Positions 18,901 through 58,500 of a stretch of DNA of 64,000 bases are shown here, in pieces. The translations under genes and the position numbers were made by a program. Source of the DNA: Macrocystis pyrifera (Eukaryota > Sar > Phaeophyceae > Laminariales > Laminariaceae); NCBI GenBank assembly GCA_031763025.1, contig JASSKH010000006.1, forward strand, positions 11,343,979 through 11,407,978. The letters run 5' to 3'. Every line of letters begins with the position of its first letter. The stretch's first letter is position 1. The notes under the pieces were generated by a model. It was not told where the DNA came from. It ran no database searches and was given only the letters and a program-made list of their open reading frames with translations.

Positions 18901-20653
18901 CTATACCCAATACCTGGCACTATTGTAGCTGTCACATACGAAGTGTAGGGGGGGTGTTGTCATTGAGAGAGGCACAAAAGAGTAAAACCGTTCCCGGCAG
19001 TGAACTTGCGTCGCCGCGAATGTAAGTAATAGTTTTTCGTTGGGCATGCCACATATATTGTATTGGTGCAGCTCGATCGTTTTGTCGTTCCACAATACCC
19101 CCTCTTAGGTTGGTCCAGTGCGCATAACAACGCATAAAATCAAGGACAACGAGATATAAGCGAATACGGTGCCCGCACCGAATCCCACGCGACATCAAAT
19201 AAATACTACAGCACCAACTCCTCATTATAAGCTAAACATACGGCAAAGTACGTACCTGAGTGCGAGCTTTGTTAACCTTATGCCAACTTTTAGGCAGATC
19301 GTGCTCGTGTATTCCTACCAGGTACATATCACATCCCAGGTAGTATGATAGAAGAAAGGCACTCACCCCTTTGCGCGCCTCCAAGAAGTTCCTTGCCAAG
19401 TAAAATCTCCGAATGTGCAACTTGTGAACAGGATTGAACGTGCCGGACCCCACCAGAAGCACCTTGGGCCGTTTCTCACAGCCACTCTGCAAGCCCTGCT
19501 TCACCCGAGCTACTACGGTGTTCGAGGTCAAGGGGTTGTTGGGCGACACGAGCGATCTGCAATACCCAGCCCGAATTGTCCGTAGCTTCTGCCCGGGCAG
19601 TACAACTGCCGGTACTCGTACTCGTAGCCTTCGTGGCTTATTGCTGCCTCGAGCTTTTCCGTCCACTCCCACTACCACCTCATTATTTACCGTGTGTCTC
19701 GCCCTCCCACATCGTGGTAAAAATCTTGTTGTCCAACACTCGAATTATCGTACGAGTAGCAGCAGTTTGTGCCGCTGTCAACTGCCGAGGCCGTGAAGAA
19801 CTCCTCGCGGCGTGTGCTGACATCCACGTTGTTGAAATTGACATTAAAGTCCTGTCGATCGTCTGCATTCGCTGACGTAGCAGCCTCAACCCGAGCAGCA
19901 CTCGTAGAGCTAAGAGTATCAGATGCTGACCTGACACTGCTTGGGTTGTCATTGGATACGCCTGCTGGGGCGAAATATGCGAGCATTGAATGATGCCTCG
20001 AATGGGGCGACGATTGGTCAACTTCTGGTTCGGCGCCTTTTGTCGTTGCTCGAGAGGGTGAGCGCTGTGAAGCATTTGGGCAGGGCAGAAGAATGCCACC
20101 ATCGCCGCCAAAACGAGCCAAAGACCCTCGTGCCACCACCACTGCTGCTGCCCATGCTTCCTGCCGGTTCCGCCTTGATATTTTCACGTCCGTCGCCCTG
20201 CTTCGATGGCGCAGGGAGCCTATCAAGAAGACGGTTCCTATGCAATGCCACGGTCTGCTGGGCGAATGGATGTGGCGGTTGTGCGAAAGGGGTCGATTTT
20301 TCACCGAACGGCAGTGGCGAGAGGGAGGGGGCGCCTTTTTTATTCTCCTCCTCGAAAACTCTTTTCTGAGTAGAGGCTTTTGCGGGGAACGACTTTGCGG
20401 GAAGGCCTGATCCAGGTACCCGCCTCTTTCGATGTTGGCTGTGACCATGATGAGATTCGCAGTCGTCTCCGTGCCAAAGGGACTGCCTTGCCCCAAGTTC
20501 TGGTCTAGACGGCAAATCATCCAACGCCAAATTTGAGTAGCCCAAGTTTGTCTCAAGGGTTCGAACTCTCTTCCAGAGTCTCGCGTCCTCGCCCTCACGT
20601 CCTTCCCTAGCTCGATTCAAGTGCGGCGGTAGCGATCTTAGTGCAGCCACCAT
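15987..20653 (-). CDS. Nicotinamide/nicotinate mononucleotide adenylyltransferase (NMNAT-like)
   Basis: The enzyme family joins NMN or NaMN to AMP from ATP, the last common step of NAD synthesis. On the minus strand, exon 19556-19256 holds the nucleotide-binding motif VLLVGSGTFNPVHKLHIRR (GxFNPxHxxH). Exon 17612-17465 begins SWLAVDPWEV, the family's substrate-site block. Exon 17375 to about 17169 ends LERTSSTM, with VR either in this exon or the next, matching the ISSTxxR ATP-site motif. Exon 16187-16144 (ALSSTSHGVSLEPL) and a last block with VARYIRDNDI complete the C-terminal helix region. Upstream, 20653-20020 is open and codes for a long basic, Ser/Pro-rich, probably disordered N-terminus; its frame changes near 20030, so an intron or error lies there. 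An exon between 19256 and 17612 and the exact last junction were not resolved. Confidence 0.75.
18827..18895 (+). repeat. Short tandem repeat in an NMNAT intron
   Basis: Five degenerate 15-16 bp units of the form ATCGTAAATCATATCGT. Too small to suggest more than local slippage. Confidence 0.5.
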
Positions 20654-29094: not shown

Positions 29095-29181
29095 CGCAGG
29101 TGAGGCAGAATCGAACTGCTGCGACGCTAATCGCCTACGGATTTGAAGTCCGCACCCCGCACCAGCGAGGATCACCCCTGC
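29095..29181 (-). tRNA. tRNA-Sec (anticodon UCA), copy 1
   Basis: 87 nt, read on the minus strand. It folds in the eukaryotic 9/4 form: 9-bp acceptor with an internal U:U mismatch and discriminator G, 6-bp D stem (CCUCGC/GCGGGG) with a UGGU loop, anticodon loop CUUCAAA, long variable arm GCGAU-UAGC-GUCGC, and 4-bp T stem (GCAG/CUGC) with loop UUCGAUU. Every one of these features matches selenocysteine tRNA and no other tRNA. The tRNA carries Ser, later converted to Sec, and reads UGA at SECIS-bearing mRNAs. T-runs downstream on the minus strand could end Pol III transcription. Flank on the 3' side differs from copies 2-8. Confidence 0.95.
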
Positions 29182-29543
29182 CACGACGATTGCTCGCCTT
29201 GAAAAGAGAAAAAACATACCAGGTACCAGTATTTTATATAGGCCCACGAAGAAGAAAGAGCCTATAAATAGTAAGAACACTAGGCTCGCTTTCTTAGGGG
29301 CGCCGAGAACAGCTTTGAGAAAATGTGCTCAGCGGCGAGCGCTACGCTAAATCCTACAGAATAGTCTATGCTCAAGGTTAAACAAGGATGGCTTCACGAC
29401 AAGACTCTCAAGGCTTGCTCAGATCACGTGTTTCTTCTTAGCGGACCTGTACTGGAATCGAGTAAACCGTTCGACGCGCGCTCGCGCAAAAACAAAAAAG
29501 GTTCGCCCTAAAACCATAATTTTATCAAGCTGCGCTAATACGA

Positions 29544-29630
29544 CGCAGGTGAGGCAGAATCGAACTGCTGCGACGCTAATCGCCTACGGATTTGAAGTCC
29601 GCACCCCGCACCAGCGAGGATCACCCCTGC
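29544..29630 (-). tRNA. tRNA-Sec (UCA), copy 2
   Basis: Identical over all 87 nt to copy 1. On the minus strand TTTT lies about 30 nt downstream (in GGTTTTAGGG), followed by a TTTTTT run; either could terminate Pol III. First of the near-identical 468-bp units. Confidence 0.95.
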
Positions 29631-30011
29631 CACGACGATTGCTCGCCTTGAAAAGAGAAAAAACATACCAGTATTCAAAGAAAAAAAACATACCAGTATT
29701 CAAGTATAGGCCCACGAATGAGAAAGAGCCTATAAATAGTAAGAACACTAGGCTCGCTTTCTTAGGGGCGCCGAGAACAGCTTTGAGAAAATGTGCTCAG
29801 CGGCGAGTGCTACGCTAAATCCTACAGAATAGTCTATGCTCAAGGTTAAACAAGGATGGCTTCACGACAAGACTCTCAAGGCTTGCTCAGATCACGTGTT
29901 TCTTCTTAGCGGACCTGTACTGGAATCGAGTAAACCGTTCGACGCGCGCTTGCGCAAAAACAAAAAAGGTTCGCCCTAAAACCATAATTTTATCAAGCTG
30001 CGCTAATACGA

Positions 30012-30098
30012 CGCAGGTGAGGCAGAATCGAACTGCTGCGACGCTAATCGCCTACGGATTTGAAGTCCGCACCCCGCACCAGCGAGGATCACCCCTGC
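30012..30098 (-). tRNA. tRNA-Sec (UCA), copy 3
   Basis: Identical 87-nt gene. Spacer differs from copy 2 by isolated substitutions (for example CATGAATGAG for CACGAATGAG). Confidence 0.95.
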
Positions 30099-30479
30099 CA
30101 CGACGATTGCTCGCCTTGAAAAGAGAAAAAACATACCAGTATTCAAAGAAAAAAAACATACCAGTATTCAAGTATAGGCCCATGAATGAGAAAGAGCCTA
30201 TAAATAGTAAGAACACTAGGCTCGCTTTCTTAGGGGCGCCGAGAACAGCTGTGAGAAAATGTGCTCAGCGGCGAGCGCTACGCTAAATCCTACAGAATAG
30301 TCTATGCTCAAGGTTAAACAAGGATGGCTTCACGACAAGACTCTCAAGGCTTGCTCAGATCACGTGTTTCTTCTTAGCGGACCTGTACTGGAATCGAGTA
30401 AACCGTTCGACGCGCGCTCGCGCAAAAACAAAAAAAGTTCGCCCTAAAACCATAATTTTATCAAGCTGCGCTAATACGA

Positions 30480-30566
30480 CGCAGGTGAGGCAGAATCGAA
30501 CTGCTGCGACGCTAATCGCCTACGGATTTGAAGTCCGCACCCCGCACCAGCGAGGATCACCCCTGC
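30480..30566 (-). tRNA. tRNA-Sec (UCA), copy 4
   Basis: Identical 87-nt gene. Its spacer on the plus-strand side has AGAACGCTAGG in place of AGAACACTAGG. Confidence 0.95.
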
Positions 30567-30947
30567 CACGACGATTGCTCGCCTTGAAAAGAGAAAAAAC
30601 ATACCAGTATTCAAAGAAAAAAAACATACCAGTATTCAAGTATAGGCCCACGAATGAGAAAGAGCCTATAAATAGTAAGAACGCTAGGCTCGCTTTCTTA
30701 GGGGCGCCGAGAACAGCTTTGAGAAAATGTGCTCAGCGGCGAGCCCTACGCTAAATCCTACAGAATAGTCTATGCTCAAGGTTAAACAAGGATGGCTTCA
30801 CGACAAGACTCTCAAGGCTTGCTCAGATCACGTGTTTCATCTTAGCGGACCTGTACTGGAATCGAGTAAACCGTTCGACGCGCGCTCGCGCAAAAACAAA
30901 AAAGGTTCGCCCTAAAACCATAATTTTATCAAGCTACGCTAATACGA

Positions 30948-31034
30948 CGCAGGTGAGGCAGAATCGAACTGCTGCGACGCTAATCGCCTACGGATTTGAA
31001 GTCCGCACCCCGCACCAGCGAGGATCACCCCTGC
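30948..31034 (-). tRNA. tRNA-Sec (UCA), copy 5
   Basis: Identical 87-nt gene. The 3' flank (minus strand) shares an AGCTACGCTAAT variant with copy 6. Confidence 0.95.
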
Positions 31035-31415
31035 CACGACGATTGCTCGCCTTGAAAAGAGAAAAAACATACCAGTATTCAAAGAAAAAAAACATACCAG
31101 TATTCAAGTATAGGCCCATGAATGAGAAAGAGCCTATAAATAGTAAGAACACTAGGCTCGCTTTCTTAGGGGCGCCGAGAACAGCTTTGAGAAAATGTGC
31201 TCAGCGGCGAGCGCTACGCTAAATCCTACAGAATAGTCTATGCTCAAGGTTAAACAAGGATGGCTTCACGACAAGACTCTCAAGGCTTGCTCAGATCACG
31301 TGTTTCTTCTTAGCGGACCTGTACTGGAATCGAGTAAACCGTTCGACGCGCGCTCGCGCAAAAACAAAAAAGGTTCGCCCTAAAACCATAATTTTATCAA
31401 GCTACGCTAATACGA

Positions 31416-31502
31416 CGCAGGTGAGGCAGAATCGAACTGCTGCGACGCTAATCGCCTACGGATTTGAAGTCCGCACCCCGCACCAGCGAGGATCACCCCT
31501 GC
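31416..31502 (-). tRNA. tRNA-Sec (UCA), copy 6
   Basis: Identical 87-nt gene. One extra A in the following spacer (near 31690) makes the next period 469. Confidence 0.95.
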
Positions 31503-31884
31503 CACGACGATTGCTCGCCTTGAAAAGAGAAAAAACATACCAGTATTCAAAGAAAAAAAACATACCAGTATTCAAGTATAGGCCCATGAATGAGAAAGAG
31601 CCTATAAATAGTAAGAACACTAGGCTCGCTTTCTTAGGGGCGCCGAGAACAGCTTTGAGAAAATGTGCTCAGCGGCGAGCGCTACGCTAAAATCCTACAG
31701 AATAGTCTATGCTCAAGGTTAAACAAGGATGGCTTCACGACAAGACTCTCAAGGCTTGCTCAGATCACGTGTTTCTTCTTAGCGGACCTGTACTGGAATC
31801 GAGTAAACCGTTCGACGCGCGCTCGCGCAAAAACAAAAAAGGTTCGCCCTAAAACCATAATTTTATCAAGCTGCGCTAATACGA

Positions 31885-31971
31885 CGCAGGTGAGGCAGAA
31901 TCGAACTGCTGCGACGCTAATCGCCTACGGATTTGAAGTCCGCACCCCGCACCAGCGAGGATCACCCCTGC
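31885..31971 (-). tRNA. tRNA-Sec (UCA), copy 7
   Basis: Identical 87-nt gene with a spacer of the copy-1 type on its 5' side and many substitutions further out (CCAATAGATAG, TTCGCGAAAATTTGC). Confidence 0.95.
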
Positions 31972-32343
31972 CACGACGATTGCTCGCCTTGAAAAGAGAA
32001 AAAACATACCAGGTACCAGTATTTTAGTATAGGCCCACGACCACGAATGTAAAGAGCCAATAGATAGTAAGAACACTAGGCTCGCTTTCTTACGGACGCC
32101 GAGAACAGCATTCGCGAAAATTTGCTCAGCGGCGAGCCCTACGCTAAATCCTACATAATAGTATATGCTCAAGGTTAAACAAGGATGGCTTCACGACAAG
32201 ACTCTCAAGGCTTGCTCAGATTACGTGTTTCTTGGCGGGCCTGTACTGGAATCAAGTAAACCCTTCGACGGCCGCTCGCGCAAAAAAAAAAAAAAGGTTC
32301 GCCCTAAAACCATGATGTTCTCAAGCTATATCCGCTAATACGA

Positions 32344-32430
32344 CGCAGGTGAGGCAGAATCGAACTGCTGCGACGCTAATCGCCTACGGATTTGAAGTCC
32401 GCACCCCGCACCAGCGAGGATCACCCCTGC
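32344..32430 (-). tRNA. tRNA-Sec (UCA), copy 8
   Basis: Identical 87-nt gene. Its 5' leader has one change (ATTACTCGCC for ATTGCTCGCC), after which the spacer becomes unrelated to the other units. Confidence 0.95.
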
Positions 32431-32670
32431 CACGACGATTACTCGCCTTGAAAAGAGAAAACAACTATAAAAAATATCATACCCTGGTACACTACAGCAG
32501 TATAAAGTTGCTTCAACAGAAAGCACTCGATTCGTCCGCATGGCGATAGAGCAGTGCAGAGGCGTTGTATGAGGACCCTCGAGCTATCCACTTCGGTACT
32601 TGTTTTCAATCACCCAGGGACAATTGCGCAACGTGCCACACCATACAGCAGCACTACTGTACGTACCTGA

Positions 32671-32733
32671 TACCAATCTGGATTAGGTATACCAATCTAG
32701 ACTAGGTAGACCAATCTGGACTAGGTATACACT
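32671..32733 (+). repeat. Short tandem repeat between tRNA-Sec copies 8 and 9
   Basis: Three units of about 21 bases, ACCAATCTGGATTAGGTAT and variants. Confidence 0.7.
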
Positions 32734-32900
32734 GGTGCAAGCAAGGGCCTCTGGGGCCTCGTGCGTGTGACGTTTGGTCATGTCTGACCGATTATCGCGC
32801 ATTTGCCTTCCGGCAATCCCTATTTCACGATTTGTTTATACCCCTTCTACTGCTGTAGTACGCACATAAAACCCCGGAGAGGTGGAGAGCTACTCTACAA

Positions 32901-32987
32901 CGCAGGTGAGGCAGAATCGAACTGCTGCGACGCTAATCGCCTACGGATTTGAAGTCCGCACCCCGCACCAGCGAGGATCACCCCTGC
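32901..32987 (-). tRNA. tRNA-Sec (UCA), copy 9
   Basis: Identical 87-nt gene with the most diverged surroundings: only about 18 bases of 5' leader (GGCGAGCAATCGTCGTG on the minus strand) are kept. The 3' flank GTTGTAGAGTAG resembles that of copy 1 (ATTAGAGTAG) rather than copies 2-8. Confidence 0.95.
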
Positions 32988-34032
32988 CACGACGATTGCT
33001 CGCCATTGGTAACGTGGATTATTGTTCCTTCCGACCAGGTATCAGGTACCACGTATCTTGCACAGGAATGACTCACCTATTGCTGTTCTTTTTCGCGGCT
33101 TCTGCGGTGTCTCGATCCTTTTCGAAGGCGGCGGGCGGTGCTGCTGGTACTGGGCAACATGGGGGGTGGGCGTGCGATTGTAGCGCACATTCTGGAATGA
33201 GACAACGAGACGATAATGATGATGAGGCAAGAGCGATGAGGCAGATACCCTCGGGAGTTCAATTGAAGCACACGTGGCACGGGGAAAATATTGTTTGGAT
33301 TTTACGCGGTCGGTATTGTGTCAAACCCGTCGGTAGGTACGAGGGACTGTGAGGTTTCCTGCGTGTTTGTTTCGAACGGGCGAAGTGGACGCTGCAATCG
33401 CGGGTACTTGCTAGCCAAAGATGTGACATGCGAAGCAACGCAAAATGTGCTTTGTCAACGGTGAGGATTTCACACTAAAATCTAGTAGTTTGGTGTCAGT
33501 CGAGGCATGTCAAGGCAAAGCTGCTGTCTGTCAAGGGGTGAAAGTGCTGTCTCCTGACATCTTTGGTACTACGGCAGGAGCTGTCTGCTGCCGCTCGTCT
33601 GCCATCCCCAGCCAGGCTAACTAAGCGCGATGTGTGACCCACATAACTGCATAATGAGTGAAGGTGGGCATAACGTGCCATGGGGCAGCACCATAACTAG
33701 TATGACCCTCCACCCGAGTTCAAGCGTAGCAGAGAAGGCTATGCACTGCCCAGGAAGCGGTGTGGGTAAATCGCCGCGTCGACCCCTTCGACTCAGCCAT
33801 TGCTTCCTCGTCGCATGCCATCGCTCTCCGCACAACCTTGTCTTGCTCGTGCTAGCCACCATGGCGACCCGATAGATGTCATGGGGATGGTGCGAAACCG
33901 TGGCAGCAGGCCGCGCCGAGGTCGGCGCTCATTGTAGACCGCCCGGACGGCGAACGAAGGCCCGTTAATAATGAGACGAGCAACACGAACGACAACCTCG
34001 CTTGGATTTGGTCGGCGCAGGAGAGCTAGCAG

Positions 34033-34698: not shown

Positions 34699-37600
34699 AT
34701 TACCAGCAGAGACCTGACGAAGCAGCTGAAGGAGTGCTACTTCGCCTTGGCCGACAACGGACCACCCAGGCGACTATTCAAGTATCTTCGATGGTCACTT
34801 CCCTCGACAAGCGTGCGACCAGCGCACGGTGCAACAAGTTGGAGATCGACAACGTGCTCATGACATGGACCTTCTTCTACAAGCGCGGCAAGAGGAGGTT
34901 AAGACTATCGACATGGACCTTGGCGCTCAACAGCTGAAGTTCAGTATATGACACGTATGGTTTTCGGAACTCGATTTCAGTTATCGAAAACGCCGGTCAA
35001 CTTCAGCCCGCACAACCGGAGGTCCATGTCGATGAGAAGTTGACCCCATCAGTCCGGATATTTCAGATAGCCTGCGTGCTAACATGTTCTTCACATGGAT
35101 ACTCGCACTATATTTTGGTTTCGGGCTGGTGTATCGCTGTCTTACGAGCGTACCTGTATGCAGGAACTCGACAACGGCGCTGCTTGTGTAGCTACTCCAG
35201 AAGTTCGTAGCGAATTCTGTCGTACATGCATGAGGCAGCAAATAGTGCTCATTTTATTTGACACGGCGAGAGTCTGCAGCGACGTCGGGCCTGGAAGGCT
35301 TTTACACTCCGGATGGGATCCAAAACGCGCACGTGCTTCTCTGGCGAGCGGAGTCCCAACGCATGTCGTTGAAATGATTAACCACTTCCTGGTAAGTCTC
35401 GCGTTTGCGGCATATCTTCAACCTTACGGAGTTTGAGAAAATGCTCGATTTTCCGTCATTCTGAGAGTACCGTTGTTCCGTATGTGTGCTGGTGGTAAGT
35501 TTTTTGCAAGTTTCTGGGAGACTTTTTACGATAAAGTGGACGCGCACACATTATCGAATAGTTCCAACCACAAGCGACGCCAGCAATAGCAGAACGCAAC
35601 ACAGTGACGCTCCAGAACTCATGTAACATGGGAAGCATTTTTTTTTCAGCCCTCTCAGAGAGCCGTGCAACCGCATGCGCAAGATGACTGCGCGGCAGGT
35701 TTGTGTACGACCCCTCTGACTGATAGAAACCTTGTGTTTATTAAGACTTCACTTTTTTCATTCCGCGTTCACTGTTTGCGACAAATGCCTGCTTCTATTT
35801 ATTGCCTACTTTTTGTTATTTTTTTCACCTTAGGTTCCACCGATCGTACTTGCCACGGATACACGGTGTGTGGTGCGACCGATCATGCAACAACGCTGTG
35901 GGCACCTTCTCGAAAGCTGCGGAGTTCTTCGCTGCGTTGGGCCAGGAGATGAGAGCAGCAGTGCCGGAGACAGTGCGGGTACGGCTGCAGGGCAAGACGG
36001 CATGCCGACTACGCCACCACTCGAACTTGGCGGTGTTTCGATCCCTGCGCTGGCGAACATGGGTGTCAACACCAACCCCATCTCGGGCTGCGGCCCTGTG
36101 GTTGAGGCAATCGACCCACAGTATGTTGAGGCTGCGGCTGACGTGTACGACCTGTTCTGCCGTGCGAGCGCGTCGGTGGCGATTCAACGGGGCTTGGACT
36201 TCTTCTGCCTCTTCGGCGTTGCCGCCAAAACCTCGCCGAGTGATGGGTGGGCCGTTGAGCTTCGCGACACCGTCGTCGACAGCTGGGGACAGATGCACGA
36301 AAGAGGGTACTACTTTCTTAGCTTGTACGAAGCAACTCTGGTTCAGATGGAGTGTTCAGACTCACGGCGGTGAGGTCGAAGGCCTTGCAGGAAACTCCCG
36401 ACACCTCCACTGGTAGTGGCGGCGGGGGCTCGAGAGGTCACGGGGTAGAGGGGGGACGAAACATTTCCGACCTCTGTACGGGTTCGACGAGTAGCATCGG
36501 AGGACAGGGAGGAAGCGGTGGGGGAGGAGGGGGAAGGAAGCGGCGGAGCAAGATGTTACACTGGCGCGACGTTAAGAAACGTGAAGGTTTTCTCCGCAAA
36601 GTGTTGACGACTGCTGCCGGTGCGGCCAAGCTTAGTGGAGCACCAACTCCGTCCGGCTTCTTCTCGGTTAGAGGCTCTGTCCCCGACCAGCCCGAAGGCG
36701 TGATAGGAAGATTGGATGCACTTCTCCAATACGGCGAGGTAAATAAAGCATTCTGCATATTAACTCAATGCATCGGCACAACCGAAAGCCCGGTGCATCC
36801 GAGCCGTGTTCACGACTTTTCTCAGGTTTGACTACGTAAGTCGACTCAGTCTGATTGTTTGAAATGACCTTGATTTTAATCCCTAAAAGCCTATCCCTGA
36901 CCCCGGCCGCCCGGGAAAGTTCTCTGAATTAAGTGCTACAGTATGAAGCTCTTGCAGTTAGAATTTTCTGTTAACTATCAACGATTTTGTCGGAATTGGA
37001 CCAAGTCGTAATCCACTACTACTTTTACATTCAGCGCATTATTGGCAGAATGTGCAAAGTTAACATTAATTCCGTATGCCTGTGAAAGGTGCCACTTGCC
37101 GTAGTACTACTGTGCAGTACGTCAATAATGTTAATTAATGATGGTATTTTGTCGCGTGTGGGTTGTTGACAGGCCAAGGTGACCTTCATCGCTCTGTTGA
37201 CAGACCAAGGTAGCCTTCATCGCTCACGGACTGAAGCCCGATAACGACCGCCTGAAGCAGAAAGGAGAAAGCAGAAACCAGGTGTGCCGATCCGCATTGG
37301 TAGCTGTTGGTTCTATTGGCTCGGCGCACATTCATTTTTCCTCTAACTACTTCTGTAGTGGTTTCGTCGTCGCATTCGTCCCCCGTGATTCTGTTGAGGC
37401 ATTCTTGTCTCGACACCGCCTTGACACGCCTTGAAATTTCTACCTGGTACGTACCATCTCTGGTGCATAATTACCCCTGCCGAACAACTAATACCGTAAC
37501 ATCATATTCTACTGCTTGTGAATCATCCTGACAACTCTCGTCCCGGCCACGATGTTTATGTCCCCATCACCATCGCCACAATTATTTCCGCAGTGAATTT

Positions 37601-49500: not shown

Positions 49501-52500
49501 TGCCTACGGCAAGACTCGACCAATGTGCAGGATGCGAGTCTCATTGGTCAGGGCTGTGGTCTTTCGGCCGCCCAGCGTTTTTACGCCATCAAAACACGCG
49601 GCGGAGCCGCGTGACTGGCCCTGCCGACCTCGAGCACCCCAAAGGGTTCGGGTTCGGGTTGGGGATAGGATAAGGGTTAGGGTCAGGCCTGGGGTCGGGT
49701 TGGTCTGGGTTCACGTGCAAGATTGAAATTGACGACACAGGTCCTGCACAAAAACTTTGTGCAGGATGCAGGATGCAGCTGCACATAGCGCACGCCCTAC
49801 GGCAAGTAAGAGTGTTCCTACATTTCCTGAGGCGTGGTATTTAAGGAGTTCTCTATTTCACCCAGGCACTGCGTTTGACAAAACAACTGCGCACTTAGCC
49901 TGACGAACGATCGATCCCATGAACCACTGACCTCTAGTATTACCCCTCTTGCTGTACTTGATAACGCCAAAGTTATAATTGCTTCAGTCGCTATCTCGTG
50001 GTTCTTGATAGATACCGTATTTCATTAACAAGGTAAAGGAGCATGTGATGAGAAGGAAAGAACAACGACGGCAATTGATTTGAAAATATACTAAGCAGAA
50101 AGACGGTAGGAACAGAAAGGAGTTAGACTTCGTGCGTAGTTTTTCTGTATGTATACCTTCGGGGTAATGGGTGGAGTTTACGAGCTTCAAACCTTGAAGC
50201 TCATGTAGCACATTGTCGGATGGCAAATGTAAGAATAACAATCGTATTGTACAGCACGAATCACGAATCACGAATATTAGGAGTTCAATGATATCGACGC
50301 GGTATAGTTTCTCAGCTACTCAGAAACATTAGGCGCTATACTGGTGCAGTATTAACACCCCTGTCGTAGCAGGCGTCAAGGGATACCTACATTAACGTGG
50401 CAATAGGGCAACAGGCAATTGGTAAGTACTACAGGGTTAGGGTTAACAAAGGCCCCATTAACATATGCCAGGTACAACTTGACTTCTTTAACGGTATTAT
50501 CCTCGCGAGGTTTCAAACTCAAACATATTCCATAGCTCTGAGGTGTCATTGCGAAAAACACTTCTGTCGGTTTGAGTTCCGCCGTGTGATCCGTGCCTGT
50601 ACCTTTTCCCTTTTGCACCTTATGCAGCTACCTAGAAGGAAACGGGGTTCAACTTGACGTAGAAGCGGCAGCCTGGTACCTGGCATGCGCGTCTTCAGTG
50701 TCGTACGCAAGATATCACCTCGTCGGCCAGCAGCCCATTGTGGAAAAGCAACGCCTGACCGAAGCAAACGAGGAGGTCGTTTCGGCGGGCCAGCTGGGGG
50801 AAGAGGACGGCCTCATCCAGTACCAGGTGCAACAGTCAAACGCAGAACTGACTGATATATTACAGTGTAGGACACCTACCAAGAACTACTAAAGCGAGGG
50901 AATGATGGCCCAGGTTCGATTTCATCTTGGAAAATAGTGCATTTTCTCCACTACCCTTGGTATCACCTTTACTGCAGGAGTATTGTAACCCACACTAACT
51001 TCCGTATAACCGCTTCCGAATTTCTTAGTACTCTGTGAATCTCAGTGTAAAAGTATCTGGTTGGTATACCCTCGGCAGGTGGTAGCACAGGCTTGGGCTG
51101 GAAGTGATTATTACACCCGTACTCGTGTGTAGTGACTACACATCAACATAGATATGAATCTCAACCTCTGCGTTCTATTTCTGACTAGCTGCTGTACAGC
51201 AGTAGTCGCACTGAACACTTATCATGGCATTAGGCTCTGCAGTCGCCTATTTCTTAACGCTCCCCCTGAATGGAAGTCGCGTCTGCAAATATTGCTCATG
51301 TCGCGAATAAATGCCATCGTTACTTGTTAATCCTGCCCTAGGATTGTCTCCTAACTTAAATCCTGTGCAGTAAATTGTCGTTGCAACTGGTGTCCCCTCT
51401 TTCACTGTTGATCTTGCCATGTCAATGAATGCATGATGTCTTACCTTAAGCTTGTGCAGTGAAATGTCGATTTGTCGGTGTCCTCTTTCACTGTTGAGCT
51501 TGTGAACTTAATTAACAGCATACTAATGCATGTGTGCACTACCAAGTTACTCCGAAGTCATAAAAACGTCAATCGCACAGCATCAATGTTTCAATTAAAC
51601 ATACTACTGTAGGTACGTTGTAGCGACCGCCATTTAGAAGGCAACTGCAAGTTTTCAATGTCTACCGTGAGATGCACTGTATTCGTGTCTTACAGCGTTC
51701 CGTTTATTGGTAACCGCCCCCACGAATACACTCTGTGTTTTATCTATAAAGCCAAAGAAGCTGACGATGAAGCTGATGGAGTGGATGCAGTTGATGAAGT
51801 TAAAATAGCCGATGGAGATGATTTGCCTGTCCCATATTATCTCCGTGATGTTGTCGGATCGTCCCGTTGGAGCCGGTGATGTTTGCTCAGGTCCTGAAAT
51901 CCCTGATCAGCCCGATGAAGTGACGGTGGTGATGCTTGTTGAGGAAATTCGTCCATACATCTGGGATGTTGTCCTCAGTTGGCACGTAGCGAATGCTAAC
52001 CTTGCCTTCCTGCACGATCTCGTGGATGTAGAAAAGCCGCAGAGCCACATGCTTAGCACGCGAGCTGGAAATGCGGTTCCCGGCCAGATGCAGAGCTGAA
52101 GTGTTGTCGATGTCAAGCGGGACGCAGTTTAACGTCTTTCCGACCCGAGCTGTTCCATCATGTTAGCACGGTAGACTGCCTCTCTTATCGCTATTAATAG
52201 TGCTGCTGCGAAAAGTTCTGCCTCCATGGTTAACTGGGCCGTGATTCCTTGAAGACCCACCTTCAAACTCACGGGGCCATTGGACATTATTATGATGTAC
52301 GATGGCATTGACTTGCCGTTGTCCGGGTCGCTGCCCCAGTTAGCGTCCGAAAATGCGGTTGGGGTAATACCTCCTCTTTTGTAGGTGATGTCGAAGTTGA
52401 TCGTGCCGGCAAGATACCGGGGAACGTGCTCGGCCGCTCCCATGTGTGCATTGGATGACTTCGACATGACCCTCGCAAGCTGGTTGATGCAATAGAGGAT

Positions 52501-55500
52501 GTCGTACCGAGTCACGTGAACCAGGTGCAGTAAAGAACCTGTGGTCGCCTGATACCATTGCTTTTCTGCGTCGTAGGTTTCCTTCTGGCTGGTAGAATGA
52601 CAGTTCCATTCCTGCTCCGGGCGTGCTCACGGGTTTGCCCTCCCCCATTCCGTACTTTTCGAGCGCGCACCTGGTGTTGTCTGCCTGAGAGATGGTGAGC
52701 GTCTGCGGGTGACTTGCATACCGATTATCAGCGATGTGTCCCCCATGTCCGTTGTAGCAAAGCGACTCATCAGCTTCTCTTTTAGCATCTCGAGCACCGC
52801 CTTGTCGCCTTCAGCAAGAATTGGGTCGTCGACGAAGAGGGTGAGGATGGCCTCCGCCTTCTTGGTCGTGTTCGCCGTGCTGTTAACGATGGAATCGTCG
52901 TCCGTGTAGTAGACGTAGAGGCAGGGGTCAGACTTTAACCAGTTTCAAGCCAATTTTCCTTCTGTGGGTGTCGATAGTGCTGTACCAGTTCTTGAGGCTC
53001 TGGCTAAGACGGTACAAGCTTTCGCGAAGCCTCAACACCGGTGAAACTCCGGTCTTCTCCTCCTTCTTCTCGGAGCCCGAGGCCATTTTGACGTACACTT
53101 CCTCCTCGACATGAGCGTTTCAAAACGCGTTTTGGGCGTCCTACTGTAGGGTATCCCAGTCGAACCCCACTGCCGTTGCGAGCACCATTCGGATGCTCTG
53201 AGTTTCTGCAAACAGGGGCGAACGTGCAGCCACAGTGTTCTCCTGCGACTTGTCCCCAGCCTTGAACAACAAGCCTTCCAATGAAGGTCTTGTCCGCCTT
53301 GATTTTGTAGACCCACCGCGAGCCGACTGATTTCTGTCCGGCGGGAACGGATGTCGAGGGGACAAGGTCGCACACGTGGTGTTGCTCCAGACTTGCCATC
53401 TCCTTGTCCAACGCTGCCTTTCACAGGTCCGCCTCCGGTAGTCCCATGGCCTCTCTGAAGGTGTTTGGAATCACAACCACGTTCTCTCCCTCCGAACGGC
53501 TTTTGAGTTGCACGCTGGTGGTGGCGTAAGCGTATTCCGCGTGAGTTAGCATCTCCATGTAGTGCGCGATGCCCGGCATAACTTCTGTGGTGTCAAGGGA
53601 AAGTTTTTTCATTCCGCGAAGGGTACTGTCAAATAGCATCGCTTGTAGGTTTCCCTCGGAGGCTTTCGACCGCGTCAGAGCAGGGGTTACTTCCAGGCGA
53701 CGAGACCCTGCCGTTTGTGTGGCGGTTGAAGCTCCTTGATATGACGCAGATGTCACCCCTCCAGCGTGCTCTTCTTCAGCGCCCACTGTGCCCGCATGAC
53801 GGACTAGGGTTGTGGACCGCAGGCTGCTGCCCATTTTTTGTGGGCTCGGCCGCCAGCGTAACGCCGCTCGATCCAGTGCCAAGATCACGACTAGTGAGTT
53901 CGCGTAACCGTGCGAGGATCTCGGTCAGCTCCGTGCCAGCGAGCTGAGCGATCTCGATGGTATGGTCGGAGGTGTTGTGGAGGTAAAGATGCGATCTGTA
54001 GTCCCGGATGTCCCTCAGCAGGTAATCGTTGTTGGCGTAGACCCCGTCGTTGCCGTTCATGACCCTCCATCCTGTGGTGTGGTATTCGCTGTCGTCAGGA
54101 AGAAGAACTATGTGCGATGGCGTTTTGATGAAAGCGACGTTCCTGCTCTCGACTATCATCTGCGTCGCCGGGTTGTAAACGCGGTAGGCCTTGGATTCCT
54201 GATTGTAACTACAGAGTCGTCTCTCCCAGTCTTTGTTGCCGAGTTCCTTGGTGTTTCGTATATTGTTTCTTTCCTCTGGCTCTGCAGTCACGGTCAGAAT
54301 AAGACGTTATTTTGTCTAGAGAGCACCATTTGGAAGGCCCTTCTCTTCTGATATTCTTGTAGTTGGCGTCGCATGTAGGACAATCCACCTTACGGTGCCC
54401 AAACTGCCTGCAGATGTAGCACTTGACAGTACTGAGCATGGCGACCCCGCGTCCTGCAATTGATGGCGTGCTTGAAGAACGTGAGGGGAGACCCGCGTAC
54501 ATAATACGCATCGTGGAGTTTATGTCCTTTCAGCCTGACGAACCATGTTCAGCTCATGAGGTGAAATAGCCATAGCGTACATACGTGCAAGCAAGTTACG
54601 AGAAGAGGATGTTAGGTTGATCATCGGGACGTCGCAGTAAGTAAGCTTCCATGAGTAAGCATCAAGAAACGATGGTGTAGGTCGCCGAGTACAATGACTC
54701 GTAGGACGCAGTCTACGTAGCCGTAGATGGGAGTTGATCCAGGACGGTTGCACCCGCGCACATCACTCTCTCTCTCACTCCTCCCTTATCTCATCTCCTC
54801 TTTCGCCGTCCGCCCACAAGCAGAAACTTTCAACATGAAAGATCTTGGATTTCCAAACGCCAGCCAGGTAGTTTAACCACAACCGGCGCAAGCCTGTGCT
54901 ACCACCTGCGATACCCGAATACAGTCTGAGTTTCTTATTGCTCGTTTTGCTAGTAGGCGTCCAGTACTGTACTGTATATCTGGGTTAGGGTTACCGTTGA
55001 TGTTACCGTTGAATTCAAGAATGCCAGATGTTAGTTCTTCTGTAGAACGCCTGAATACCGTTTGACACGCAAGATAACACTCTGCTCCTGGGATGGACGG
55101 AATATGAACCGGCTTCCTCTAAACCATGCCTTAAGGGCCCTTGAGCGGGGCACACACAACGAAAATGGCGGCATTGGAAACGAAATATCTCTTCGAGGTC
55201 TTCCCATATAGGTGCATCGCTCGTCGTTCGCAATCTATCTCAACTGTTATCGAGACAAGCAGACAGGAAATACTCTCCGGGGGGGGTGTTATCTTAACTC
55301 TTTCAGGCCTGCAGCCTCTTTAGATCAGTTTTGGGGACAGACCGCTTGGAGTTTGAGTGGTTTGTCCCCAAAACGGGACTGCAGTTTTACAAGGGTTAAG
55401 CGTTATACCATGCCACGGTGGTGTCTTTCTGGTGAACGCACCGTGTCAAAACCGGTGCAACAGGGCGCCAATCGCTGGTGGAATATGTTTACGACACTAC

Positions 55501-58500
55501 ATTTGTTCCGTCCGCGGTACGTTTGAAGAATTTCTTTCTACACGGTGTTTGATTTGTACAACCATGTCGCCGTTCGACGGTATATCACTTTGCGATAAGG
55601 CAACAACAATGCCCCCGGGCCGGGTCACCTCACCCCACCAGCACGCTCACCTAGCTCGATAGTATATGTTTCCCTCGCTGCCTCGGCAAGGCATGCTGCG
55701 AGGTATGCCCCATCTGGCTTAGCGAGTGGGGTGGTCTTTCTGGCGGGTGTAAGAGCGGACTCACCCTCAAGGAGTGATACCTTCTTGCTCCTGCGTGTGG
55801 TGCGTGGCTTTGGCGTGGCGGTAGAGTTGGGTCGTACGTGGTGCGTCAGGCAAGGACACCTACGATTTGCCCGTCTTTTTTACGCAGCAGCGGCAGAGCA
55901 TCAATGCTCAATGAGGATGCCCGTGCGCGGAGGCAGGCGCCATCACAGGCCAAACCACGGCACAGTCTAAATTGCGCCGGCAGGAGACTGGATTCGACGA
56001 CGAAGGAGGAAAAAGACTCACCGTCGACGAGTCGGGAAGAGACGGATTGGACTCATCCTGCGCGAGAGTTTTCGTTTTTCAGATCAGAACCGCAAGTTGC
56101 GAGGAGCTTTTCGTTTTTGGGACAAGAGAGAAGGGGGGAACATACTGGAAGGGAATGTCAACGAGAGCACGTGCAAAGGAGCGGGTCAAGTGGGCCAAGG
56201 CGATGAGGCGGCCAGGGAGAACGGCAGCAGGACGGCACACAGAGCCGCGACCGGCGCGCACACCATCGCGAGAGCAGCAATCATCGTTTTCTTCTATATT
56301 TTGTTTTGTACGAGGCAGTACAGTAGCAACCTGTAGCACCTGTTAAAAACATCACTGTTCTTTGTAGTAGAGTTGTGTACCCTTCATGGGGAATGACCCC
56401 CTGCAATGATCAGGAAGTGGTATCATAGCTGTGCTGCACGTTGTCGAACAGTCCAGGATGACGCGGCGATCGTTGATATTTTTATGGTGGTTTTGGGTTC
56501 GATTCCTCTTTTTTCACTACATATCCGCGAGTCTTCACTCTGACGGCACCCCAGACAGCAGGCGTGTTCCTCTCTGTATTCACACCTACCGTTCGTTTCG
56601 TACGGCGCAGGCAGCACTCCAGACAGCAACCGCGGTATTCAGTAGCCATGAGTTGGCCAGTTGTGGGAACGGGGAGAAATTTTATGCTGTAATTGAGTGG
56701 ATACCCGCGGCCATGCTACAGCAATTCAGTTTGCACATTGATTTCATCGCATGCGTGCGCCTTCTTCGTCTAGTGAATTTTTAGGTGGGAGGCGTCGTGC
56801 TTCCCAGCCAAAAACACTGTTTTTTTCGAATGCTTATTCGGATCTTCCAGGGGCTCCAGCACCTTTGTGTGACCACGGACTCTTTGATTTGAGAGTTCAT
56901 GTGAGAACAACAACAACATATGTATTAGTCTTCATGAGCGTCACATCAGTTTTGATTTGTCGTCTGATACTGCCGCGCTTTTGTTCTGGAGAGTTCTTCA
57001 CTTTCTGTCAGTCCTTTTTAGAACAACACTACACATTGTCGGATGGCAAGCATAATAATAATATATACGAGTATGTACATTTTTTCACCTCGCCTGTTTC
57101 CTTTCGGACTCGGTTCCACGCGATGTCCGCCTCCCCGTGATGCGATGGGCTGTCTACAAACGAAAACAGATTCATCGAGCAAACCAGGGCGACGTTCCGA
57201 GTCAGGTGGCTTTGGGAGAACTCTTCTACTGGGGAGCCCGAGGGGTTCCCCGTGATCAGGTCCGAGCACTGAATTACTTCACAGCAGCAGCTGACGCCGG
57301 TGACAACACAGCACGGTGTGCGGCAGCGGTAAGTCAGACAGACGCCTTCAGACTGGACGTAAAATGTATCATATAAATAGTAGGCAAAATGGAGGAGTAC
57401 CCAGTACCCATCCGCCTCCCGAAAGAATCGTCCCGACCAGACATGAGTTTGCTACTAAGTATATTTGAGACGAATGTATGTATGTATGTATGTATGTATG
57501 TATGTATGTATGTATGTATGTATGTATGTATGTATGTATGTATGTATGTATGTATGTATGTATGTATGTATGTATGTATGTATGTATGTATGTATGTATG
57601 TATGTATGTATGTATGTATGTATGTATGTATGTATGTATGTATGTATGTATGTATGTATGTATGTATGTATGTATGTATGTATGTATGTATGTATGTATG
57701 TATGTATGTATGTATGTATGTATGTATGTATGTATGTATGTATGTATGTATGTATGTATGTATGTATGTATGTATGTATGTATGTATGTATGTATGTATG
57801 TATGTATGTATGTATGTATGTATGTATGTATGTATGTATGTATGTATGTATGTATGTATGTATGTATGTATGTATGTATGTATGTATGTATGTATGTATG
57901 TATGTATGTATGTATGTATGTATGTATGTATGTATGTATGTATGTATGTATGTATGTATGTATGTATGTATGTATGTATGTATGTATGTATGTATGTATG
58001 TATGTATGTATGTATGTATGTATGTATGTATGTATGTATGTATGTATGTATGTATGTATGTATGTATGTATGTATGTATGTATGTATGTATGTATGTATG
58101 TATGTATGTATGTATGTATGTATGTATGTATGTATGTATGTATGTATGTATGTATGTATGTATGTATGTATGTATGTATGTATGTATGTATGTATGTATG
58201 TATGTATGTATGTATGTATGTATGTATGTATGTATGTATGTATGTATGTATGTATGTATGTATGTATGTATGTATGTATGTATGTATGTATGTATGTATG
58301 TATGTATGTATCATATGCATGTCGGTACCGTGGTTATGGTGTGCCGTAGAATGGCTTCGTGTCTCACGGAGGGAGAATGCGAAAGCCGTTGTGTTTTTTT
58401 TTTGTGTGGTTGATTTATTACGATTTGTTGAAGAAGCCGACCACGCAAAGTGACGCTAAGGGGTGGTCTTGAGGATAAACGGGCCCCGCCATGTCATGCC

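Follow-up and report, generated by a model that had tools for sequence, protein, structure and literature searches.

The 64-kb window of the giant kelp (Macrocystis pyrifera) genome analysed here (C220:11343979-11407978; positions below are those of the window) carries nine selenocysteine tRNA (tRNA-Sec) genes in tandem on the minus strand, between positions 29095 and 32987. ARAGORN and the Rfam model RF01852 at its gathering score each report exactly nine, and RF01852 scores all nine at 78.8 bits (E 1.5e-14) against a gathering cut-off of 47, so that a chance origin is excluded. Apart from these nine, neither ARAGORN nor Rfam at gathering scores reports anything in the 64-kb window. The 87-nucleotide (nt) sequences of the nine genes are a single sequence. 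The first-pass annotation of this DNA had described nine identical 87-nt minus-strand copies and had made that description depend on scoring against the Sec covariance model; both programs, the shared 87-mer and the model score agree with it. In order of increasing coordinate we label them A to I, transcription running from I to A; all were called by ARAGORN and RF01852:

29095..29181, minus strand, tRNA-Sec copy A, last in the direction of transcription, outer left flank unrelated
29544..29630, minus strand, tRNA-Sec copy B
30012..30098, minus strand, tRNA-Sec copy C
30480..30566, minus strand, tRNA-Sec copy D
30948..31034, minus strand, tRNA-Sec copy E
31416..31502, minus strand, tRNA-Sec copy F
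31885..31971, minus strand, tRNA-Sec copy G
32344..32430, minus strand, tRNA-Sec copy H, 5' flank unlike the core spacers past ~31 nt
32901..32987, minus strand, tRNA-Sec copy I, first in the direction of transcription

The anticodon is UCA, both by ARAGORN and by a position-by-position reading. An acceptor arm of nine positions and a T stem of 4 bp give the 9/4 geometry, with seven of the nine acceptor positions paired and the other two occupied by G:A (position 6) and U:U (position 8). The D stem and the anticodon stem are 6 bp each, the variable arm is long with a UAGC loop, and the last base of all nine 87-mers is G, the G73 discriminator that has been called essential for tRNASec (PMC5330540). 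The diagnostics listed in the first-pass annotation (UCA, 9/4 geometry, 6-bp D stem, UAGC loop, U:U and G73) are thus all present, and the G:A at acceptor position 6 is an addition to them. Judged by structure, the nine genes are intact and real, and the array is probably functional. Gene starts follow one another at 449, 468, 468, 468, 468, 469, 459 and 557 bp along the array, which Tandem Repeats Finder (TRF) describes as a repeat of period 468 with 6.9 copies and 96% matches. With starts 449-557 bp apart, the genes fall within the definition of a tandem identical tRNA cluster given in PMC12652284 (identical genes on the same chromosome at distances below 1 kb).

Identity extends beyond the genes into a short 5' leader, located by comparison of the flanks:

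32988..33004, minus strand, 17-nt 5' leader of copy I, GGCGAGCAATCGTCGTG

Each of the nine genes has these 17 nt immediately upstream (29182-29198, 29631-29647, 30099-30115, 30567-30583, 31035-31051, 31503-31519, 31972-31988, 32431-32447 and 32988-33004), with a single C-to-T change in copy H (32431-32447), so that what every copy shares at the least is GGCGAG(C/T)AATCGTCGTG followed by the tRNA. Copies I and F are identical over 104 nt, comprising the tRNA and the 17 nt 5' of it; beyond that, 4 of 17 and then 5 of 26 sites agree, which is chance level, and in the 3' flank 5 of 20 sites are alike. In copy H, ~31 nt of the 5' flank are held in common with the core copies, with one change. Because copy I matches copy F over these 104 nt only, the conserved block is the gene plus its leader. 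This block looks like a constrained unit, in which the 17 nt would act as a promoter or a leader.

The spacers, numbered one (A-B) to eight (H-I), differ among themselves:

29182..32343, unstranded, seven core spacers from gene A to gene H, each 362-382 bp long, by spacer alignment
29652..29703, 30120-30171, 30588-30639, 31056-31107 and 31524-31575, unstranded, 25-bp internal duplication of 2.1 copies in spacers two to six, by TRF

Spacers two to six share 98.2-99.7% identity with one another (1-7 substitutions) and 97.5-98.3% with spacer one (6-9 substitutions), so that 1-9 substitutions separate any two of the first six, and no pair among the core spacers is identical. Spacer seven stands at 91.1-93.0% identity to the other core spacers (25-32 substitutions plus indels), and spacer eight and the outer flanks are alignable only beside the gene. 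The 25-bp duplication has no counterpart in spacers one and seven. The body of spacer one resembles spacers two to six and its leader-adjacent part, which lacks the duplication, resembles spacer seven; this mixed state is what one would expect from recombination between units.

Each core spacer also contains part of a repeat that is dispersed through the genome:

31567..31806, unstranded, copy of the dispersed ~240-bp repeat in a spacer, approximate extent from genome DNA matches to the spacer
29272-29465, 29709-29933, 30177-30401, 30645-30869, 31113-31337, 31581-31806 and 32116-32259, unstranded, repeat-matching parts of the seven core spacers

At least 39 other places in the genome match the spacer at 70-83% identity, with 40 candidates scored out of 523, and at that identity the repeat probably predates the amplification of the array. 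In 23 aligned genomic copies one end is sharp, near spacer position 79, and the other is gradual, between positions 280 and 320. The spacers were rejected as carriers of another RNA, as Rfam at E up to 1 has no match in them; the sole other match at that level (E 0.69) lies to the left of the array. No tRNA was present in the three copies of the dispersed repeat that were scanned. One spacer-repeat copy sits in a cluster of five tRNA genes spanning 12 kb (L044, G000:C189:14627598-14639624), three of them read as tRNA-Asn, a single coincidence that may be due to chance.

Across the genome searched (537,376,219 bases in 223 contigs), a scan with RF01852 gave at least nine matches (53 of 43,495 first-look candidates scored). 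When the gene and its leader were searched together as DNA, the nine candidates that came up all matched at E<=10 and were the only matches; all lie inside the array, eight at 100% identity and one at 99% (copy H, owing to its leader change). No tenth, degraded, pseudogene or fragment copy of tRNA-Sec was found in the 537 Mb by this search, and a tRNA-Sec-derived mobile element was rejected, as the same search gave no dispersed or degraded copies. A degenerate tRNASec pattern had 0 matches in each of the collections viral_contigs and genome_contigs, which hold no eukaryotic DNA. With its tandem 468-bp units, its uniform centre, its diverged edges and no copy found elsewhere, the array is, on this sequence evidence, one that grew locally, and the first-pass suggestion of a locally amplifying tRNA cluster holds. 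Judged by their spacers, copies B-F look young. Over the core spacers, 36 of 359 ungapped columns are variable, which would lead one to expect 8.7 changes within the 87-nt gene; 0 are observed, giving a p of about 1e-4 under independence of sites, a figure that overstates the case because the units share history.

For transcription signals, 30 ordinary kelp tRNA loci (read among 63 matches) and 12 U6 loci (read among 17 matches) served as comparison sets. The B box of the tRNA-Sec genes, as read from sequence, is standard and intact. At -11 to -9 the leader reads CAA, or TAA in copy H, and CAA shortly upstream is a usual start of plant Pol III (RNA polymerase III) tRNA transcripts (PMC11700998); only 6 of the 30 ordinary loci have a CAA that begins no more than 11 nt upstream, so as a start signal it is weak evidence. 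By eye, copies A-G lack a TATA between -20 and -40, and the tRNA-Sec leader does not occur upstream of U6 at any of the 12 loci read. An animal-type external promoter has a TATA near -30 and elements in common with U6; by eye the kelp array shows no such arrangement, which defines animal genes and not all eukaryotes. The leader was also rejected as a general small-RNA promoter: besides its absence at the 12 U6 loci, its best agreement at the 30 ordinary tRNAs is 10 of 17 positions over 24 offsets, and 8 of 17 when directly adjacent. The first run of four T (T4) is reached at +30 to +35 in eight copies, and in copy A at +78, versus 23 nt or less in 27 of the 30 ordinary loci, the other three having it at 33, at 43 and nowhere within 60 nt. 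Fisher tests give 1e-6 if the nine copies are taken as independent and 0.004 for three independent flanks, in a comparison that was not planned beforehand and among copies that are related. The contrast suggests long 3' trailers or another mode of ending, and we treat it as a lead. Other kelp tRNAs likewise keep short fixed 5' leaders: nine tRNA-Met loci (L087-L095) all have TGCGG upstream (TGCGGG in eight), with the first T4 at +2 to +4 in eight and at +8 in one; L087 and L088 have nearly equal flanks and may be one locus twice.

By its sequence, the kelp uses selenocysteine. The search for the Sec machinery covered SecS, SPS and eEFSec. SecS is represented by five exon matches together on contig C221, and in one of them a TGA follows PLATG, probably marking the exon end. 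SPS has three exon matches on contig C193, each under the whole-protein cut-off, and is a Cys variant at what we take to be the active-site motif. A 61-residue exon on contig C131 has eEFSec as its best match in the Protein Data Bank (5izk, 4.6e-20), with the next protein, EF-Tu, at 1.4e-7, and we keep it as the probable eEFSec on the strength of that one exon. Other matches to the SelB model were rejected as eEFSec, namely C148 (the one of its two matches that was scanned is EF1A), C209 (eRF3/EF1A-like) and L102 (IF2-like by eye). The two C148 matches, at 274828-275646 (minus strand) and 284766-285584 (plus strand), have equal scores and lie inverted ~10 kb apart.

Two loci of the Rdx family each have a single in-frame TGA exactly at CxxU, in a CVSU (SelT-like) and a CGGU (SelW-like) exon, both above the cut-off of the SelT/SelW/SelH model. 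The three GPx exon matches have no TGA: the first locus has Cys in NVASQCG, the match at the second falls short of the active site, and the third covers model positions 35-70, starting past where we presume that site to lie in the model. These selenoproteins are a minimum; the count covered the Rdx, SPS and GPx families. For brown and yellow-green algae 5-6 selenoprotein genes have been reported, and for diatoms 20-44 (PMC7539508). The first-pass idea of a gene dosage serving heavy selenoprotein synthesis therefore finds no support in selenoprotein number, with 5-6 genes reported for the group and with SPS and one GPx in their Cys forms, and the count of selenoproteins and SECIS (selenocysteine insertion sequence) elements that it called for came out in part, with two TGA-at-CxxU exons and no Rfam SECIS match within ~1.5 kb of them. 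According to the Secmarker authors, tRNASec number and selenoprotein number are not correlated in the data they describe (PMC5330540).

tRNASec is generally assumed to be single copy (PMC5330540). Zebrafish resembles the kelp in having identical tRNASec genes within one genome, and differs in having two copies only (cited in PMC5330540). Three eukaryotes are credited with four tRNASec when copies with compensatory changes are counted, among them Fragilariopsis cylindrus, for which eleven non-identical predictions are given, nine without structure-breaking changes and three with compensatory ones (PMC5330540). Like the kelp, this diatom is a photosynthetic stramenopile with many tRNASec genes; unlike the kelp's nine identical genes in one array, its predictions differ from one another (100-nt flanks counted; PMC5330540), and 36 selenoproteins are listed for it versus the 5-6 genes reported in brown algae. 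In their head-to-tail genes and short repeat units the kelp genes are like the tandem tRNA arrays of plants, where Arabidopsis has 27 tRNA-Pro genes in a tandem array (PMC11700998) and where 578 identical tandem pairs in 410 clusters of up to 26 genes have been counted (PMC12652284); the plant tandem examples in these sources, unlike the kelp array, carry ordinary amino acids. Among 50 plants, tRNA-Sec is reported in four green algae only, with one or two genes each (PMC12652284), and another source predicts tRNASec in 22 species including Ectocarpus, 68 genes in all, the majority of the species being land plants (PMC7678280). We found no report of an identical tandem tRNA-Sec array in the open-licence literature, and the term tRNA is absent from the main text of the Macrocystis genome paper (PMC10498591). 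The first-pass remark that no such array was known to have been described thus stands for identical tandem genes, with the eleven tRNASec of Fragilariopsis cylindrus (PMC5330540) as a qualification. What is new is the combination: all tRNA-Sec genes found are identical and sit together in a single array, and the lineage is one reported to be poor in selenoproteins.

We consider it likely that the array is a working multigene tRNA-Sec locus of giant kelp, amplified and held by selection, that raises tRNA-Sec supply. This reading builds on direct observations, namely the number, identity and architecture of the genes, the finding of no further genomic copy, the Sec machinery genes and the two TGA-at-CxxU exons. 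A 468-bp unit, consisting of the 17-nt leader, the gene and the spacer with its dispersed repeat, would have been multiplied via unequal crossing-over, giving an array whose centre would be young or still homogenised and whose edges would have diverged in their flanks. Every gene, having its own leader and internal B box, would probably be transcribed separately, and purifying selection, probably aided by gene conversion, would hold the 87 nt and the leader alike. Nine copies would then yield one tRNA species, and the likeliest outcome would be a larger or faster tRNA-Sec supply from a single locus rather than a wider range of selenoproteins.

Several points weigh against this reading. Taken by themselves, copies B-E would be expected to show just 2.1 differences in the tRNA, so that their identity says little and the argument for selection rests on spacer seven and on copies H and I. 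The unrelated flanks of H and I may themselves stem from rearrangement or insertion and not from age, and gene conversion confined to the gene could keep the copies alike without selection on each. In NCBIfam the exon on C131 scores nearly level for EF-Tu (43.1 bits) and SelB (41.8) and is ambiguous. Rfam finds no SECIS within ~1.5 kb of the SelT-like and SelW-like exons, for which an intron, distance or a diverged element may be the reason. The brown algal selenoproteome is reported to be small, which leaves a need for dosage unexplained.

As to what caused the array, we prefer dosage of one tRNA species, and its main rival is recent neutral amplification with concerted evolution, in which copy number drifts, one or a few genes suffice and the rest are young or converted. 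We take this rival seriously while thinking it the less probable account: identical tandem tRNA clusters are common in plants (PMC12652284), copies B-F have the young spacers that it predicts and copy number does not follow selenoprotein number in the Secmarker survey (PMC5330540), but spacer seven has diverged by 7-9% and neither H nor I has an alignable 5' flank, yet the 87 nt are unchanged, and the genome DNA search found no degraded copy. That the assembly multiplied a single unit is highly improbable. The Secmarker authors regarded copies identical including their 100-bp flanks as likely artefacts (PMC5330540), a state to which B-F come near, but here the core spacers are all distinct, even the first six. 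The published genome comes from a haploid female gametophyte, sequenced with PacBio at ~100x with a mean read of 15.8 kb and assembled with Canu (PMC10498591); the array, at 3.9 kb, is far under that read length, and the stretch read contains no N. Distinguishable spacers in an array well within such reads make an artefact unlikely.

Two further explanations change the role of the array. Its genes might be transcribed unusually, with long 3' trailers and possibly not as simple Pol III units, the array offsetting a poor output per gene. The distant T4 runs point this way, as does Leishmania, where tRNA-Sec is made by both Pol II and Pol III (cited in PMC6463643), and the G:A acceptor mismatch could reduce output or charging; the intact B box speaks against it, as do the common ancestry of the copies, the unplanned nature of the test and the 3 of 30 ordinary loci with an equally far T run or none, and we hold this explanation to be unlikely, judging from sequence. 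The cluster might also bind Pol III factors and serve mainly as a chromatin or boundary element, with tRNA dosage secondary; insulator activity of tDNA is known in yeast and animals. That all nine copies are co-oriented within 3.9 kb would suit this, but no sequence feature calls for such a role, and we give the idea very little credence.

Pfam, run on 18 of the window's 41 frames of at least 150 aa, gave one significant match, a Copia-type domain (SH3_retrovirus, 1.7e-9, in 53776-54306) within the remains of a Copia-type retroelement at 52129-54306 (minus strand), where a frame at 52129-52626 (minus strand) is polymerase-like by eye only, with no significant Pfam match. A perfect (ATGT)n array at 57474-58311 (TRF, 209.5 copies, 100% matches) is open in several frames on both strands. 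The frame at 19232-19744 (minus strand), with no Pfam match, contains a GSGTFNPVHKLHIRRF stretch that we take to resemble an exon of nicotinamide-nucleotide adenylyltransferase. To the right of the array, the frame at 35834-36373 (plus strand), also with no Pfam match, has a 60%-identical public protein of 314 aa and is probably a conserved gene of unknown function.

A stronger version of the selected locus would have it homogenised, uncoupled in size from the selenoproteome, and equipped with its own leader promoter and an unusual termination; we put this forward as speculation, and think it doubtful. If it were true, the kelp would need far more tRNA-Sec, or tRNA-Sec differently timed, than so few selenoproteins would lead one to expect; possible reasons would be SelT or SelW made in bursts, readthrough of UGA, or compensation for a weak tRNA. 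As nine natural replicates, the copies show what is conserved in a kelp tRNA-Sec gene, 87 nt plus a 17-nt leader, and, being identical and apparently intact in a reportedly selenoprotein-poor lineage, they make the control of tRNA-Sec supply testable.

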